DNA of 64,000 nt, taken from positions 3,440,501-3,504,500 of the forward strand of contig NZ_CP143423.1 of NCBI RefSeq assembly GCF_014337925.2, in the 5' to 3' direction. Both the position numbers and the translations under genes were made by a program. How positions within the stretch are numbered: position 1 is the stretch's first letter; every line of letters starts with the position of its first letter. This document shows, in pieces, positions 3,227 through 19,389 of this stretch. The DNA is from Roseobacter fucihabitans (lineage in GTDB: Bacteria; Pseudomonadota; Alphaproteobacteria; Rhodobacterales; Rhodobacteraceae). Under the pieces are notes generated by a model. It was not told the DNA's origin and ran no database searches. It worked only from the letters and a program-made list of their open reading frames with translations.

Positions 3227-3751
3227 TCAGGATTTTCCGGTCAGCCGCTTCAACCAGCCCTTTTTCTCGGCCTCAGGCGCATCATCGGCGGGCGCATCCT
3301 GCGAAGCCGCAGGCCCCTCAATGGTGTTTTGCAGGTTGGAAAAGAACTGCTCCGCCATCTTCTTGGCAAAACCATCGATGATCCGGCTGCCAAGTTGCGC
3401 CAGCTTGCCGCCGACTTTGGCCTCCACATCATAGGACAATTCAGTTCCGCCGTCCTTGGCCACAAGGCGCACCTCGGCCCCTCCCTTGGCAAATCCCGCA
3501 GCACCGCCCTTGCCCTCGCCGGTGATCGTCAAGGACTCACCCGGCACCATATCCGACAGGGTCACGACCCCCTTGAAGGTCGCCTTGACCGGGCCAACCT
3601 TTTGCACAACCGTCGCCTCGAAGCCTTCTTCGGGCGAACCGGTCACATCCTGTGCGCCCGGCACGCAGGCCTCCAACACTTCCGGGCTCAGCAAAGCGGC
3701 ATAGACCGTCGCAGGGCTGGCGGCGATCTGGCGGGTATCTGACATGTGCAT
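3227..3751 (-). CDS. CoxG-like SRPBCC domain protein
   Basis: The 174-residue protein has the START/SRPBCC fold pattern of CoxG: MSDTRQIAASPATVYAALL at the start, LEACVPGAQDV (the conserved CxPG turn) near residue 32, then GPVKATFKGVVTL and ELSYDVEAKVGGKLAQLGSR. In carbon monoxide dehydrogenase clusters CoxG anchors the enzyme or aids its maturation, but no cox genes are seen here, so the role is open. The C-terminus has an Ala/Asp/Glu linker and a basic end (KKGWLKRLTGKS). GGAGGA sits 8 nt before the first ATG, which favours this start. Confidence 0.8.
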   Translation of the reverse strand: MHMSDTRQIAASPATVYAALLSPEVLEACVPGAQDVTGSPEEGFEATVVQKVGPVKATFKGVVTLSDMVPGESLTITGEGKGGAAGFAKGGAEVRLVAKDGGTELSYDVEAKVGGKLAQLGSRIIDGFAKKMAEQFFSNLQNTIEGPAASQDAPADDAPEAEKKGWLKRLTGKS

Positions 3752-3873
3752 GAGCGGGCTCCTCCAAAGCTGTCTTCTCTCTTTCTAGCGCAGAGATTTC
3801 AGATGCGCCAATCCCATTTCGATTCCGTCGTTTTAACGCTCGACAGGTGTCACAGGGCTGATACCTCTGAACC

Positions 3874-4851
3874 ATGACCGCACCGCCCCAAAACCACGCG
3901 ACACTCGGCATTCTTTTTGTCATTGCGGGCGTTTTCGCCATTTCCATCAACGACATGCTGATCAAACAATTGTCGGGCGGATATCCGTTGCATGAAATCG
4001 TCTTTCTGCGCTCCGCGATCGGCATTCTGTTTTCGCTGGTAATGGTGCGGATGGAAGGCGGCTGGCGCATCCTCAAGACCCGCAGGCCGTTTTTGCACCT
4101 GATCCGGGGGTTATTGATCGTGATCGCTAATATGAGCTTCTTTCTCGCACTCGCGGCGATCCCGCTGGCCGATGCCACCGCCCTGTTTTTTGCTGCACCG
4201 CTTTTTATCACGCTGCTGTCCATCCCGATCCTGGGTGAAAAAGTCGGGATCATGCGGATGAGTGCCGTGCTGGTCGGCTTTGCCGGGGTTGTTATCATGC
4301 AACGCCCTTGGGCCGACAGCGGTACGCTGGAGGCGACGCGCGTTGTTTTACTGCTCCCGGTGCTGGCGGCCTTTACCTATGCGCTGAACCAGATCATGAC
4401 GCGAAAACTCGGCGTGGAAAGCAAAGCCTCCGCCCTGTCGGTCTATATTCAGGCGACGTTCATTGTCGTGTCGATCGGGTTTTATCTGGTGGCCGGTGAC
4501 GGGCGTTTTGCGCAAGGAACCGACAATGCGTCGCTGGAATTTCTGCTGCGCGCCTGGGTCTGGCCCGCGCCGGGCGATTGGGGGGTGATTGTCGGCATGG
4601 GGGCGAATGCAGCCATCATCGGCTATTGTCTCAGCCAGGCCTACCGCATGGCGGATGCGGCTACCGTGGCACCTTTTGAATACGTCGGCCTGCCGCTCGC
4701 GGTTTTCTGGGGCTGGCTGATTTTTGCGGAATTGCCCGTCTGGGAAGTCTGGGCGGGGATTTTCCTCATCCTCGGATCGGGATTGTTCGTGTTTCTGCGC
4801 GAACGTCAAAAAGCGCGGGTTGTGGCGCGCGCCCCGCTCAAACGCCACTGA
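3874..4851 (+). CDS. DMT superfamily (EamA) transporter
   Basis: A 325-residue membrane protein with about ten hydrophobic helices arranged as two EamA repeats. Repeat one begins GILFVIAGVFAISINDMLIK, and the second half contains PFEYVGLPLAVFWGWLIFAE, a typical EamA end motif before the last helices. Such proteins export or import small metabolites such as amino acids or nucleotide sugars. The substrate is not inferable. It is divergent from the CoxG-like gene, with a 122-bp gap between them that can hold both promoters. Confidence 0.88.
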   Translation: MTAPPQNHATLGILFVIAGVFAISINDMLIKQLSGGYPLHEIVFLRSAIGILFSLVMVRMEGGWRILKTRRPFLHLIRGLLIVIANMSFFLALAAIPLADATALFFAAPLFITLLSIPILGEKVGIMRMSAVLVGFAGVVIMQRPWADSGTLEATRVVLLLPVLAAFTYALNQIMTRKLGVESKASALSVYIQATFIVVSIGFYLVAGDGRFAQGTDNASLEFLLRAWVWPAPGDWGVIVGMGANAAIIGYCLSQAYRMADAATVAPFEYVGLPLAVFWGWLIFAELPVWEVWAGIFLILGSGLFVFLRERQKARVVARAPLKRH

Positions 4852-11784: not shown

Positions 11785-13142
11785 TGTCGGACGGATCCTG
11801 GATTACACTTATTTCGCTGGCCGTAACGGTCCTCTTTATGCTCGGCACGCCGGTTTTGCTCGTCATCTTCTATTGGGTGATCGGGTGCAGCTTTGTCATT
11901 GATCTACCGCTGGCCAATACCGGCAATGAATTGATCAACGTCTTCAGCAAGGGCTTTGCGCTGCTGGCCATGCCCCTCTTCATTCTGACCGGGGACCTGA
12001 TCAACCAATCGGGCATCGCGCGACGATTATCGAATTTCGCCTATTCGCTGCTGGGCTGGCTCCGGGGCGGATTGGCGATGGCTTCTATCGCTGCCTGTGG
12101 CCTCTTTGCGGCGATCTCGGGCTCCAACTCGGCAACAACCGCCACCATTGGCTCAATGCTGCACCCCGAAATGGTCAAAGGCAACTATGACGAACGCTTC
12201 TCCGCCGCCACGGCTGCGGCGGGGGGTACGGTGGGGATCATCATTCCGCCTTCAATCATCTTCATCGTTTACGGCTTCCTGATGAACCTGCCGATTTCGG
12301 AACTGTTCATCGCCGGTATCGTGCCCGGAACGCTCATGGTTCTGGCTATGATGACGGTCGCTTTCGTGGTCTGCACCATCAACGGCTGGGGTATCCTGAT
12401 TGCGCTGTCGTTCCAGCGGGTTGTCAAAACCGCTTTTGGGGCCTGGTTGGGTTTCTTTGCAATCGGCCTGGTGCTCTGGGGCATCTACACGGGTAAGTTC
12501 TCTCCAACAGAGGCCGCCGGCATCACCGTAGGGTTCTGTGTGTTCGTCGGATTGCTGTGCTATCCGCTGAACAAACTCATGGGCAGCGACCGCGACACGC
12601 CCGTCGAAGACAAGAGCATGTTGTCAATGTTCGTGGTGGAAGGCTTCACATTGCCAAGCGTACCTTCCATCGTGTCGCGCTCCGCTCAGATCACCGGTAT
12701 TCTGGTCCCTCTGATTGCGGTATCGGTGGCGATGCAACAGGTGCTCTCCTCCTTGGGTGCCAAGGAATACATCGGTGATTTCGTGATCGGCATGGGCGGC
12801 TATTATGCGGTTCTGTTCACGGCGATGGCCATCGTCTTCGTCACTGGCATGATCCTGGAGTCCCTGCCGGTCACGATCATTCTGGCACCGATCCTGGCAC
12901 CAATCGCTGTGTCGGTTGGCATGGACCCGATCCACTTTGCTGTCGTCTTCCTTGTGGGCGCTTCGATCGGCTTCATCACGCCGCCTTATGGTTTGAACCT
13001 ATATGTGGCATCCGGGGTCACAGGCGTGCCTTATTTCCGCCTGTTGCGCTATTCCACCATGTATCTGTTTGCGCTGATGGCGGTATGGATTATGGTCGCA
13101 TTGGTGCCAAATCTGGCTCTTATGCTGCTGCCAACCTCATAG
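11784..13142 (+). CDS. TRAP transporter large permease (DctM family)
   Basis: A 452-residue protein with 12 or more hydrophobic segments and the DctM hallmarks: AMPLFILTGDLINQSG (about 62-77), GLFAAISGSNSATTATIGSM and GGTVGIIIPPSIIFIVYG, then near the end GFITPPYGLNLYVASG. It forms the Na+-coupled import channel with the small subunit. The start is defined by the one-base overlap with the dctQ-type stop. A longer frame from 11646 is out of phase with the operon and rejected. Confidence 0.92.
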   Translation: MSDGSWITLISLAVTVLFMLGTPVLLVIFYWVIGCSFVIDLPLANTGNELINVFSKGFALLAMPLFILTGDLINQSGIARRLSNFAYSLLGWLRGGLAMASIAACGLFAAISGSNSATTATIGSMLHPEMVKGNYDERFSAATAAAGGTVGIIIPPSIIFIVYGFLMNLPISELFIAGIVPGTLMVLAMMTVAFVVCTINGWGILIALSFQRVVKTAFGAWLGFFAIGLVLWGIYTGKFSPTEAAGITVGFCVFVGLLCYPLNKLMGSDRDTPVEDKSMLSMFVVEGFTLPSVPSIVSRSAQITGILVPLIAVSVAMQQVLSSLGAKEYIGDFVIGMGGYYAVLFTAMAIVFVTGMILESLPVTIILAPILAPIAVSVGMDPIHFAVVFLVGASIGFITPPYGLNLYVASGVTGVPYFRLLRYSTMYLFALMAVWIMVALVPNLALMLLPTS

Positions 13143-13152
13143 AAACCTGGGT

Positions 13153-13932
13153 ATGCCGGACGACTTTGTACATGAAAGACAGGACCAGATACCGACCAAT
13201 TTGCGGTTGCTGGTCCTGCTTGAGGAAGTTGCAAAAGCCGGCGTACCCGTCACGCCATCCTCGCTCAAGGATGTTCTGAACCTGCCAAAACCCACGCTGC
13301 ACCGTCTGTTTAATACCGCCGAGGCGGCCGGGTTTTTGCAACGCGATATCGACGGGCGCTCTTATGGACCCGGACCGCGCTTGCGCAAACTCTCGCTCAA
13401 TACTGTCTCATCGCAACGGCTGCGCACGGTACGTCTGGCCATTTTGCGCAGCGTTGCGGAAAAGATCGGAGAGACCTGCAATATCGCCACGCCCGACCGG
13501 GAAGGGATGGTCTATCTGGACCGGGTCGAAACCCATTGGCCGCTGCGCATCCAGATGCCCATCGGCACGCAGGTCCCGTTTTATTGCACCGCGAGCGGTA
13601 AAATGTATCTCTCCTCCCTGCGGCCAGCCTATTTTGATCGCTACCTCGCTACCGCATTGCTCGAAAGACAAACCCCCGGCACGATCACGGACAAAAGCAA
13701 GCTCAAGGCCGAAATAGAAAAGATCCGTAAACGCGGTTATGCCACCGATGACGAAGAATTCATGGAAGGCATGACAGCGCTCGCTGTGCCGATCTTTGAT
13801 GATCGCAAAAGGGTCGTCTCGACCCTATCGGTACATTCCCCCTTGCAGCGGCGCGACCTCGCAGATCTCAAAAAAGACGTCGATACGTTGAAGGCTGCGG
13901 CGCGGGAGCTTACGACCCTGATCAACAGTTGA
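13153..13932 (+). CDS. IclR family transcriptional regulator
   Basis: The 259-residue protein has an N-terminal winged helix (LRLLVLLEEVAKAGVPVTPS, then DVLNLPKPTLHRLFNTAEAA as recognition helix) and the IclR effector domain with YLDRVETHWPLRI and CTASGKMYLSSL. It follows the TRAP permease by 10 bp and is probably cotranscribed. It likely senses the TRAP substrate or a breakdown product and controls the divergent GMC gene and the TRAP operon (inference). Confidence 0.9.
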   Translation: MPDDFVHERQDQIPTNLRLLVLLEEVAKAGVPVTPSSLKDVLNLPKPTLHRLFNTAEAAGFLQRDIDGRSYGPGPRLRKLSLNTVSSQRLRTVRLAILRSVAEKIGETCNIATPDREGMVYLDRVETHWPLRIQMPIGTQVPFYCTASGKMYLSSLRPAYFDRYLATALLERQTPGTITDKSKLKAEIEKIRKRGYATDDEEFMEGMTALAVPIFDDRKRVVSTLSVHSPLQRRDLADLKKDVDTLKAAARELTTLINS

Positions 13933-14548
13933 TCAAATCAGACCCTGTGGCATCTAGAAATGGATAAGGGGCATAGTATCGCGTTCGCACAGCTTCATAG
14001 GTCGGGCTTGATCCGATTTTTGAAAACACTGCCGCTATTACCTGAGACTTTGGGCGCGTGGTGTTTTTTCGAAAATATGATCTGCCCCCCCGAGGCTCCC
14101 TCATTCATAACGAGAGTTTGCGGTCGTACTCGTCGTCGTCGGTTTGGGCAAGCGCGTCGTGCGCGGAGCCCTCAAATTGCTCAAGCGCCCGGCGCGCTTC
14201 TGCCGGCGTTTGGTTCTCCAGCGATGAATGCGGTCTGACGTTATTATAATCGTATCGCCAGAGGGCCAGCTTTCGACGGGCATCATCCAAGGTGTCGAAG
14301 ATCTCCTCATTCAGCAGTTCGTCTCGCAGGCTCCCATTGAAGCTTTCGATGAAGGCATTCTGCGTCGGCTTGCCCGGGTCGATGTAATGCCAATCCACGT
14401 CGTTATCACCGGCCCGTTTCAGGATCGCACGACTGGTAAATTCCGTGCCGTTATCACTGACGATACAGGCGGGCTTTCCATAGACGCGCACAAGCGCATC
14501 AAGCTCGCGTGCCACCCTCGCACCAGTGATACTGGTATCAGCCATCCG

Positions 14549-14593
14549 TTGCCCGGCAGGCGATTTGGCAAAGCCAAACCTGCCGGGAGGAGG
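14549..14593 (-). repeat. Hairpin insertion E
   Basis: Interrupts LCL/VADTSITG of orfB (about 44 nt net). Arms GGTTTGGC / GCCAAATC with TTT loop, extended by CCGGCAGG / CCTGCCGG on the outside, giving the longest stem of the set. Read on the minus strand it ends GCCGGGCA like its relatives. Confidence 0.7.
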
Positions 14594-14646
14594 CACAGGT
14601 TCTCGCGGCAGCAGTCGTTGTTCATGGCTAACATACGGAACTTGCG

Positions 14647-14682
14647 CCCCTCTCATGCATGTAAACATGCATTGCCGGGCAA
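14647..14682 (+). repeat. Hairpin insertion A
   Basis: Splits FGAS/RKFRML of orfB (37 nt, frameshift). Plan: CCCTCTCA, arm TGCATG, loop TAAA, arm CATGCA, then TTGCCGGGCAA. Confidence 0.8.
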
Positions 14683-14842
14683 TGGACGCACCAAACGTGT
14701 CAGACACAAAGTCCAGCGATCAGCGTTCACCAGGACGTAACGCAACAGGCATCGGTATTCCTGATCCTCGCGCTCGTTTGCGGCCTCGGCGCCGCCTGAC
14801 GCCCAGCTTTTCCTCGGTGTAGAGACGATACAGCTTCTTGTG

Positions 14843-14877
14843 CCCTCTCATGCATGTAAACATGCACTGCCGGGTGA
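14843..14877 (+). repeat. Hairpin insertion B
   Basis: Splits GMIM/HKKLYR of orfB. Same stem and loop as A (TGCATG TAAA CATGCA), followed by CTGCCGGGTGA. It brings an in-frame TGA. Confidence 0.8.
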
Positions 14878-14923
14878 CAGTATCATAATCATGCCTTTGC
14901 GTTCCAACAGCACGCCGATCCGG

Positions 14924-14960
14924 CCCCTCTCATCGATACTGCGTATCGACTGCCGGGCAG
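14924..14960 (+). repeat. Hairpin insertion C
   Basis: CCCCTCTCA, arms TCGATAC / GTATCGA around TGC, then CTGCCGGGCA. It joins RRDKPP directly to RIGVLLERKG, so about 18 native codons are missing at this site. Confidence 0.8.
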
Positions 14961-15002
14961 TGGGCGGTTTGTCGCGCCGGATGGTCTTGGGGCCGACACC
15001 CG

Positions 15003-15037
15003 TTGGCGGGCAACACATGCTTGCATGTGTGAGAGGG
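15003..15037 (-). repeat. Hairpin insertion D
   Basis: Opposite orientation to A-C. On the minus strand CCCTCTC, arms ACACATGC / GCATGTGT with AA loop, then TGCCCGCCAA. It sits between CRLV and GVGPKT of orfB and adds about 36 nt, in frame (12 codons). Confidence 0.8.
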
Positions 15038-15156
15038 ACAAGCCTGCACGCCCGACGTTGCGAGATATCATGATCTCCCATCGCCTTGCGTGCCGCAGCC
15101 CGTCGCACATGCGTTCGCCATCGTGCTCGAACCAATGGCGCATCAATGGCTCACCG

Positions 15157-15462
15157 TCAGTTCTTTCCCAGCAAATCTTTCAACATGACGTTGTTGAGCA
15201 TCGTGTCCGCCAGAAGACGCTTCAGCTTGGCGCTCTTGTCCTCCAGCGATTTGAGGCGGTGGGTGTCAGAAACGTTCACCCTCGGGACATCGCTGCGCGA
15301 TACCCTGCCGTGCAACGCATGCCGCCGTATTTTGCTTTGAATTTGCAGAACGATGCATTGGCTCAGACCATGTCTGCGACACACCTCTGCCGTCGGCATC
15401 CCAGCTTCCTGTTCTTTGATCATCCCGATAATCCGGGCCTCGGTAAAACAACTCTGTCGCAT
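15157..15462 (-). pseudogene. IS3-family orfA (helix-turn-helix), carries a hairpin insertion
   Basis: Start MRQSCFTEARIIGMIKEQEA matches IS3 orfA, and the end has the leucine-zipper-like LKSLEDKSAKLKRLLADTML and LKDLLGKN. In the middle, hairpin F adds 41 nt; a nearby +1 change (after RHGLS) restores the frame, so the 101-residue ORF remains open but the middle 30 residues are not transposase sequence. Confidence 0.75.
15277..15317 (+). repeat. Hairpin insertion F (41-nt type)
   Basis: In orfA between YGGM and VSDTHRL. Plus strand reads CCTCGGGACATCGCTGCGCG then ATACCCTGCCGTGCA: arms ATCGC / GCGAT with TGC loop, and an outer GGG / CCC pairing. Net 41 nt if the native codon is GAC. Confidence 0.75.
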
Positions 15463-15592
15463 TTGTCTGCTCCTTCAAAGGCTGAGCAAACCCTACATCA
15501 AACTGAGGGAAGTTTCGGGGGGGGGGGGGGGGCAGGGCAAACGTTTTTAGCCCGATCGGTCTCAGATGGGCTTTGAGAAAGCCATCTCGATC

Positions 15593-15633
15593 ATTGGCCG
15601 TCAGGGTATTGTGCAGCAATGTCCCGAGAGGTG
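15593..15633 (-). repeat. Hairpin insertion H (41-nt type)
   Basis: In the IS630 transposase between DLNP and IEMAF. Minus strand CACCTCTCGGGACATTGCTG then CACAATACCCTGACGGCCAA. Exactly 41 nt between AACCC and GATCGAG of the native reading. Confidence 0.8.
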
Positions 15634-15730
15634 GGGTTGAGGTCGCGGGAGTAGGGCGGCAAGAACAGGAACCAGCACGCGCTTTCTTAACGCCTGCGCT
15701 GCGCGGGGGCTTTTGTGGGTGGAAAGATTG

Positions 15731-15774
15731 CCCCTTGCCCGGCAGTTGATTGCAAAGCAATTAAGGAGAGGAGA
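15731..15774 (-). repeat. Hairpin insertion G
   Basis: In the IS630 transposase at the GTVAIL/DNLSTHK junction. Minus strand CTCCTCTCC, arms TTAATTGC / GCAATCAA with TTT loop, then CTGCCGGGCA. About 40 nt net. Confidence 0.75.
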
Positions 15775-15979
15775 GAATGGCTACCGTTCCGGGTTCCAAC
15801 GCAGGTGTCGAAGGCGCGCCCGTCCAGTGCACCCGTGATCACCCACGGCGCGATCAGCGCAGCCCGGCGATGAAAGTCTGCGTACCCCGTTTTCCAAAGG
15901 GCGCGGTGCCAAGGAGGCGCTCGCCTATAGGTGCCCGTCCGCACAGCCGCGTGACATTGGTTTTTACGGCTGTCTCATC

Positions 15980-16020
15980 CACTGGCCGTCAGGGTATTGC
16001 GCAGCAATGTCCCCAGAAGC
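15980..16020 (-). repeat. Hairpin insertion I (41-nt type)
   Basis: In the IS630 transposase between RLVFI and DETAVKTN. Minus strand CTTCTGGGGACATTGCTGCG then CAATACCCTGACGGCCAGTG. Exactly 41 nt, shifts the frame just before the first catalytic Asp. Confidence 0.8.
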
Positions 16021-16626
16021 AATAAAGACCAGTCTGTGTGGCTCCTGGCGCATGCGCGGCTGGCGGTGGTTGATCCACCCCCGCCTTGCCCTGCGCAGGG
16101 CAGGCCGATTACGTTCCCGTGCGATAAGTCCTTTTTTCATATAAGAACCCGGCGCGTACCAAGGCGCGGTGAATTGATGAGAGGTGAACAGATACGCCAG
16201 ACGTGTCTTCCAGCGCGCCGGATAGTTCATGCAATGTTATGTCTGGTTCGGCACGGATAACCCCGATTAAGAAATCCTTATACGGTGCCAGCTGGCCAAA
16301 TCGGCCCACCGGCCTGCCCTGTGGTCTGGGCGTGACGTCGCGCCGCTCTCGTTTGTCCGCAGCATAACGCACCCCCGTTGCCGCACTGACACCAAAAATA
16401 CGCCCTGCTGCACGACAAAAGATCCCAGCAGCAACATACCCGCAAATCCGGTGCCGAAGATCTAAAGAAAGAGGTTTGCCCATCATCCACCTCCACACTG
16501 AAAATGAAGCAGACAAAGACTCCTTTGGGAAACACAAATCAATTCAGATTAAACGCAAACCGCTTTAAGGTTCGTTTGGGCTGGCATGTTCGGCGCGATA
16601 TCCTTATGGCAAGCCTTATAAACAAT

Positions 16627-16661
16627 GCGGACGTGGTGGAATCGGTAGACACAAGAGACTT
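16627..16661 (+). pseudogene. Truncated tRNA-Leu (probably UAA), 5' half only
   Basis: GCGGACGTGGTGGAATCGGT then AGACACAAGAGACTT matches the acceptor 5' strand, D arm (GGTGGAATCGGTAGACAC) and the 5' anticodon stem of a bacterial tRNA-Leu up to the anticodon loop. The following bases (TTCTTAAGC) do not continue the tRNA and no 3' half with GTTCGA was found before 16918. Breakage in the anticodon loop is a place where some integrases recombine. Confidence 0.7.
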
Positions 16662-16918
16662 TTCTTAAGCATTATGTTGATCCACCCTTGGTACGCTCTC
16701 CCTGATTGCGAGAGTTCACAAATTCGGGTTTCCAGTTTTCCATCCAAAACGCATGATTCAAACAAACGACACAACTGAATGAAGGCAGGGCTGCAACCTA
16801 CGCTCGGAGCACCCTTTCGACCTTGCCGTATTCGCGCAAAACCTCTCGTCAATAGTACCGAACATCATACCTAATCCGCCAGTACGCAAAGCGTTCGTTA
16901 CATGCGATCTGCGCAGAC
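16662..16918. other. Unassigned DNA between tRNA-Leu fragment and terminator
   Basis: About 260 bp of DNA. Open frames here have no recognisable motif, and I cannot assign it to an insertion sequence. It replaced the 3' half of the tRNA-Leu gene. Confidence 0.4.
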
Positions 16919-16944
16919 AGCGCGCCGGTGGAATCCGGCGCGCT
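16919..16944 (+). terminator. Strong hairpin terminator, plus orientation
   Basis: Perfect 10-bp stem AGCGCGCCGG / CCGGCGCGCT with a 6-nt loop, followed on the plus strand by TTATTTC. The orientation fits the tRNA-Leu transcript upstream better than katG on the minus strand, though katG ends only 44 nt away and could use the same stem. Confidence 0.65.
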
Positions 16945-16987
16945 TTATTTCTTGCGACCTGGCCATGTCAGAGTACGGGCAAAGCCA

Positions 16988-19389
<2,402 letters not shown>

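Follow-up and report, generated by a model that had tools for sequence, protein, structure and literature searches.

Nine hairpins in two insertion sequences

Two neighboring insertion sequences (IS) in the window, the 64,000-nt stretch of the Roseobacter fucihabitans genome analyzed here, carry a series of short hairpins, and the question is what these hairpins are and how they came to lie there. All nine hairpins of the original prediction (A to I) were present at positions 14547 to 16020 of the window and, as it had stated, in both orientations (Table 1). Hairpins A and B had been assigned one stem; the stem is shared, but one base differs. The stems of C, D, E, and G were each unlike the A/B stem, and F, H, and I shared the stem GGGAC-A...CCC with a bulged A, both as predicted. 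The proposed element boundaries were nearly right, with hairpin-free homologues adding about 2 nt per side. The ends of A to E and G showed at most two mismatches, and H, which was missed by the finder, was set by hand from the sequence.

The unit at 15540 to 16661 was read as an IS630-type IS, of which a homologous copy (L182) matched Pfam DDE_3. Removal of the hairpins had been expected to rejoin the transposase frame; this did not fully hold for the IS3-type IS, since its orfA, as we read it, appears to keep an additional 1-nt frameshift apart from the hairpins. The IS3-type IS is bordered at its end by a long G run (15518 to 15532), and its other copies likewise terminate in tracts rich in C and G. 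Rfam models gave no match up to an E value of 5 at positions 12000 to 19000, and ARAGORN detected no tRNA at positions 15900 to 17300.

Table 1. Hairpins and their host insertion sequences (positions in the window)
Feature	Positions	Strand	Length (nt)	Description	End mismatches
Hairpin G	14547..14591	-	45	In orfB of IS3-type IS	
Hairpin A	14648..14684	+	37	Stem ATGCATGT	0
Hairpin B	14843..14879	+	37	A stem with one base changed	2
Hairpin C	14925..14962	+	38	Stem TCGATAC	0
Hairpin D	15001..15037	-	37	Stem ACACATGC	2
Hairpin F	15277..15317	+	41	Bulged subtype; in orfA; ends degraded	3
Hairpin H	15592..15632	-	41	Bulged subtype; in IS630-type IS; coordinates hand-placed	
Hairpin E	15733..15772	-	40	In IS630-type IS	0
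Hairpin I	15980..16020	-	41	Bulged subtype; in IS630-type IS; ends degraded	4
IS3-type insertion sequence	14087..15523	-		Hosts A to D, F, G; Pfam rve, HTH_Tnp_1; four near-identical genome copies	
IS630-type insertion sequence	15540..16661	-		Hosts E, H, I; repeated unit in genome	

Insert boundaries and target

Sites were merged by flank similarity at thresholds that differed between analyses, giving 98, 101, or 111 distinct sites. A homologue without the hairpin at the same place was found for 47 of the 98 distinct sites, and on this comparison of sequences the hairpins are identified as insertions and not as IS parts. The closest of these homologues was about 90% identical in the fetched DNA, so that no very recent jump was caught. 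The hairpins could nevertheless have been native parts of the IS, as the original prediction had allowed for the case that the same hairpins were seen at the same sites of other IS copies. Such copies do exist in this genome: the hairpins are not limited to the IS3-type copy of the window, and all four near-identical copies carry them. However, the hairpin-free homologues refute a native origin, and the same heart (the part between the constant ends) occurs at unrelated sites; this explanation is almost certainly wrong.

A Blast search of flank-joined sites against hairpin-free relatives mostly gave a 4-nt excess over the first element definition. From these relatives, the insert was defined as CCCTCTC-hairpin-TGCCGGGCARTG, 36 to 45 nt long, at the target C^RAYG, with one base uncertain. 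Thirty-one of the 47 homologues aligned without gaps at the removed length. The base to the right of the removed segment differed from the homologue in 25/31 of them, against a background of 23%, and this base (G in most cases) is probably part of the insert. At the C position, the homologue had C in 14/31, G in 8, T in 5, and A in 4; because C was found in only 14, insertion may have replaced one native base. No target-site duplication was found at the junctions aligned with hairpin-free homologues.

Over 101 sites, the target counts were 76 for C (which could be the element's own base), 94 for R, 58 for A, 86 for Y, and 62 for G. The motif is loose: the true site had a median rank of 31 among about 2000 positions (500 bp on either side), and 40/101 sites ranked in the top 20. 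The mean open frame spanning the site was 147.7 aa at the removed length, 143 to 150 aa when the removed length was changed by 3 or 6 nt in either direction, and 131 to 137 aa at the other lengths tried. Frame length was a weak test, as the mean frame with the hairpin left in was 141.6 aa and frames of at least 120 aa were seen at 72/98 sites, compared with 71/98 after removal.

Fold, ends, and recurring hearts

The inserts were most often 41 nt long (35/98), followed by 37 nt (19/98); 82/98 shifted the reading frame, and 16/98 were a multiple of three. Stem covariation was examined in an alignment of the distinct 41-nt elements (32 of 33, one being left out), in which related rows can inflate measures other than pair types. 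In this alignment, 94.8% of cells were paired, compared with 77.8% in shuffles, and 37 double-change cells were seen versus 10.6 in shuffles, with changes on both sides in seven of the nine pairs. The covariation score was 0.383 versus 0.101 when shuffled and at most 0.122 with the partner slid. Further pair types (9) were no more numerous than in the shuffles, 131/500 of which were as high. The CCCTCTC and TGCCGGGCARTG ends were nearly invariant, in part because the finder requires them. Given the covarying stems and these ends, the element retains its fold and both ends, and the sequence of the stem is free to vary.

In this genome, 7/46 hearts recurred at two to five non-homologous sites. 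Because the same hearts stand at unrelated sites, the whole element is copied and mobile. Together with its occurrence in related genomes, this bears out the earlier proposal of a mobile, copy-generated palindrome whose ends are constant and whose stem varies. Several hairpins were chimaeric, joining the left flank of one site to the right flank of another (L195, position 2115; L166, position 5008; L172, position 2790), which suggests recombination between hairpins. As general recombination break points, hairpins were rejected: 20 of 192 distinct alignment ends lay at hairpins, compared with 20.6 expected.

Host genes of the hairpins

Read by eye, 57 of 58 distinct sites in this genome lay within IS genes or at their junctions, with L198 unassigned, and the same was true of 34/40 distinct sites in other genomes, all of them within IS genes. 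The remainder of the 40 comprised one RHS gene and five sites without a recognized gene (L094 twice, L211, L215, and L230). Pfam searches were made for 20 hand-chosen ORFs, mostly recognized ones, and 16 were IS-type (two below the curated cutoff); the other four gave a generic HTH (read as IstA), RHS, ECH_1 (in a gene adjoining the site), and no match. For 10 random sites of the 111, seven were IS-type (one weak), one lay beside ECH_1, and two gave no match in the frames tested. By reading and Pfam, the hosts include IS3, IS5, IS6, IS21, IS66, IS256, IS481, IS630, and IS1182 types as well as IS110 (L338), IS200 Y1 (L334 to L336), and IS91 Y2 (L340) genes.

The only clear non-IS coding site seen was L206 (G364:C6:294599, about position 1498), a hairpin in an RHS-repeat gene whose raw frame is open across it. 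Genome G377 carried five near-identical hairpins in similar GC-rich flanks (L234 to L238); the one whose frames were read (L211) was not IS-like. None of the 98 sites read was recognized as lying in an essential host gene. We infer that selection clears hairpins from host genes and that the process also favors IS DNA, for example, while it is single stranded or replicating, because selection alone would leave more intergenic copies than were seen among the sites read.

Hairpinned IS copies in this genome

Units of about 1.1 to 1.8 kb occurred with identical hairpin sets in different flanks. There were four copies of the window IS, five full and three partial copies of a second IS3-type IS, six full copies of an IS1182-type IS, and three to four copies (some partial) of an IS21 unit, among others. 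The IS with identical hairpin sets have moved. In this genome, no high-identity hairpin-free copy was found for the window IS, the IS1182-type IS, or the second IS3-type IS; insert-free matches reached about 72 to 77% identity at best, and 6/6 full IS1182-type copies were 40 nt longer than the hairpin-free query. A hairpin-free IS3-type relative stood at 19 places in G000 (e.g., C1:3340719 and C2:42730) and was 73% identical to the hairpinned IS over 481 nt.

Once the hairpins were cut out, one long frame of 478 codons was obtained for the IS1182-type gene (two hairpins) and one of 269 codons for istB (five hairpins); an IS256-type and an rve-type gene gave stop-to-stop frames of 404 and 316 codons. 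By reading, other hairpinned IS genes carry further lesions (window IS and second IS3-type IS). Past its last hairpin, the second IS3-type IS reads as an inverted transposase C-terminal end (L162, about positions 3660 to 3927, and copies). This IS seems to lack the last catalytic region, although several near-identical copies exist. Mobilization in trans, gene conversion, or a lost active source could each account for the hairpinned copies.

Distribution in genomes and plasmids

Further copies, for which a search of this genome and its relatives had been proposed, were found in both. The pattern CCTCTC-N(10-30)-TGCCGGGCA gave 108 exact matches in the genome (47 forward and 61 reverse) and none in the reversed control. 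A tolerant finder, run in 47 stretches around 100 of these 108 matches, recovered 147 copies, 61 of them distinct as element plus flank. A stricter pattern was present in 97/394 genomes of the family (393 genera, about one genome each), with one match of the reversed control in the whole table; two of the strict matches (G134 and G028) had no evident hairpin, and thus the figure of 97 may be slightly high. A pattern search of named genomes returned at least 116 stretches, most of them by chance. Hairpins with exact ends were found in Halocynthiibacter, Ruegeria, Salipiger, Oceaniovalibus, Sedimentitalea, a Rhodospirillales MAG, and Cohaesibacter. Plasmid records matched in 83 cases with one hairpin as the query and in 12 with another, mostly from Roseobacter-group genera; the 83 included 40 Pseudosulfitobacter and two Shinella records. 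Phage records gave no match to the one hairpin used as a query.

Putative mobilizing enzyme and mechanism

We consider it probable that the hairpins are copies of a nonautonomous mobile element of about 40 nt, whose fold and ends are read by an enzyme supplied in trans. Such an enzyme would recognize the folded hairpin, most likely in single-stranded form, together with both ends. On the complement of the strand given here, it would attach the element after CRTY, in the manner of single-strand (HUH-type) transposases, which insert following a short target. The stem would then drift by paired changes, as the fold and ends alone would be read. Insertion at the DNA level is favored because, relative to the genes, hairpins are found in either orientation. 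The geometry of a folded hairpin, a one-sided short target, and no duplication resembles that of single-strand transposition.

The loci collected around hairpins yielded no long autonomous form bearing these ends and inverted arms separated by 60 to 4000 nt. The original prediction had pointed to a TnpA/RAYT or other partner. When this was tested by presence, a Y1 protein was found in 39/394 genomes, with a mild excess in hairpin-positive genomes (16/97, 9.6 expected), and the other 81 of these 97 were without one. Four enzyme families were searched in the 34 genomes with at least three strict matches, and Y1 was found in 7, Y2 in 11, RVT_1 in 12 (11 above the curated cutoff), and IS110 in 26 (25 above it); as none was universal in these hairpin-rich genomes, none of the four was accepted as the resident enzyme. 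The adjacency of IS110 elements to hairpins was also dropped as a lead, since, by reading, the hairpin of L338 lies inside the IS110 gene and those of L334 to L336 lie inside a Y1 gene. In the latter loci (G000:C1:436639, 3626497, and 3701079), the hairpin interrupts the IS200-type Y1 gene close to the domain end, and an IS110 element follows the gene.

Coincident sites and alternative explanations

Homologous IS of different genomes, both with hairpins, were compared for the positions of their inserts. In 34/118 comparisons, the hairpins coincided within 4 nt, 30 of them at 0 nt, and 33 of the 34 had the same orientation with differing hearts; the comparisons include repeat copies of the same IS within a genome, and the distinct coincident sites number nine. 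In istB, position 663 carried four different hairpins in four genera, and positions 327 and 528 were common to two. On a tree of 27 istB genes, site 663 required four changes, all forced by well-supported branches. The C^RAYG motif, with its median rank of 31 among about 2000, falls short of fully explaining these coincidences. We take them as repeated insertion at the same IS sites in different genera; a single ancient gain followed by many precise losses, or an exchange of hearts, is a less simple explanation.

Coincident positions, shared orientation, and differing hearts would also be expected of old insertions that later had their hearts exchanged or altered by drift, and the istB tree is compatible with one gain and many precise losses. 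However, the four changes at site 663 are forced by well-supported branches, and within this genome the heart at a given site is the same in near-identical IS copies, except for a 2-nt variant, which makes this account improbable. Repeated hits could also mark a homing hairpin, about 40 nt long, that specifically seeks out transposase genes at the same conserved sites across IS families and genera, either as a hyperparasite on IS or as a system that disables them. We view this possibility as doubtful; if it were true and some hairpinned transposases were still made, the hairpins would be among the smallest bacterial intervening sequences. A host defense that inserts hairpins at conserved transposase-gene sites to disable transposons is harder still to uphold. 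The IS bias (57/58 and 34/40 sites assigned by reading to IS genes, about a dozen families in all, with Pfam assignments for 16/20 chosen ORFs and 7/10 random sites) and the repeated use of one nucleotide across genera agree with it. In contrast, hairpin-bearing IS have still multiplied to several copies, a hairpin-free relative coexists in the genome (19 matches at 73%), and no effector gene was found.

There is likewise little chance that the hairpins are intron-like or bypassed inserts in working transposase genes, either excised from the mRNA or bypassed by the ribosome, leaving the IS active. Such inserts would fit the long frames restored by cutting out hairpins (478, 269, 404, and 316 codons), the lack of high-identity hairpin-free copies of three IS families searched in this genome, and the location, in our own reading, of several sites at conserved and probably catalytic residues, with the motif positions presumed for these transposases. 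They would not fit the presence of both orientations even within one gene (four sense and one antisense in istB), the asymmetric element ends, or the other lesions read in the window IS and the second IS3-type IS, and essential host genes were not seen among the 98 insertion sites. A REP family mobilized by a RAYT or IS200-type (Y1) transposase is less credible again. The combination of a hairpin, a short adjoining motif, and no duplication is formally Y1-like, and Y1 is somewhat more common in hairpin-positive genomes; but 81/97 of these genomes gave no Y1 match, the stem is not the conserved part, the copies are intragenic, and the unit is a single hairpin.

Comparison with known elements

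The nonautonomous mobile hairpin that we favor was compared with known small elements. Byp elements of Magnusiomyces mitochondria are skipped in translation and hence lie in sense orientation. They resemble the hairpins as inserts of similar length in coding genes, whereas the hairpins occur in both orientations. Rickettsia palindromic elements are longer and lie in frame in host protein genes. The analogy drawn in the original prediction is less apt for this reason, as both are palindromes inside genes, but 82/98 of the inserts shift the frame and lie mostly in IS genes; 16/98 were multiples of three, and one in-frame case lay in an RHS gene (L206). Small dispersed repeats (SDR) of Nostoc are very small mobile hairpins with empty sites and also occur inside genes. 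They differ in being cyanobacterial, are not known to be tied to IS genes, and appear to have other ends and another target. Nostoc SDR (e.g., SDR5) were reportedly described by Elhai et al. in 2008.

The distinction from MITEs and classical REPs made in the original prediction is supported: the conserved terminal inverted repeats and target-site duplication of MITEs were absent, as the arms vary and no duplication was seen, and the sites are intragenic. REP and REPIN sequences are intergenic, have a conserved stem with GTAG, and are mobile as inverted pairs. They share with the hairpins a short nonautonomous palindrome and a proposed Y1-type mobilization, whereas the hairpins are single, intragenic, located in IS, and usually without a Y1 gene in the genome. 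Instead of a GTAG-type tetranucleotide beside a conserved stem, we found CCCTCTC and TGCCGGGCARTG ends around a varying stem; Y1 was present in a minority of genomes (16/97 hairpin-positive and 39/394 overall), and the location was genic rather than extragenic (57/58 and 34/40 in IS genes by reading, with Pfam for part of them). REP and REPIN with RAYT are the subject of PMC3116915 and PMC8266576.

CGTC-tagged REPs of Alphaproteobacteria have no known transposase, and their association with transposase genes is described as rare and fortuitous in the consulted part of PMC3733652. They are likewise alphaproteobacterial palindromes, and on its opposite strand the hairpin target is CRTY^G. According to the same part of that source, they differ in having CGTC inside the repeat, an 8- to 9-bp stem starting with AT, and a CCA tail (PMC3733652), and the hairpins do not show this structure of CGTC followed by an AT-starting stem of 8 to 9 bp and a CCA-type tail.

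Judged by titles and abstract openings, with subscription papers and preprints sparsely covered, the literature gave no description of the hairpin element, and a search by the end sequences returned nothing on such an element by title. Roseobacter-group bacteria with the hairpins were not named in the consulted part of PMC12306157. In Octadecabacter antarcticus, many IS are pseudogenes, for example, 14/15 IS1182 and 16/17 IS481 (PMC3646047), and the main text of that paper contains no word starting with palindrom, repeat, or hairpin.

The hairpins pose the directly testable question of why IS genes are hit and which enzyme moves them, and clear predictions follow from their target preference, the hairpin-free homologues, and the recurrence at identical sites. 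They represent a compact mobile element in which recognition seemingly depends on shape and ends, and their compensatory stems provide a natural test series. The element is common in the family, with 97/394 genomes positive by the strict pattern, and could explain some of the transposase pseudogenes found in this family.
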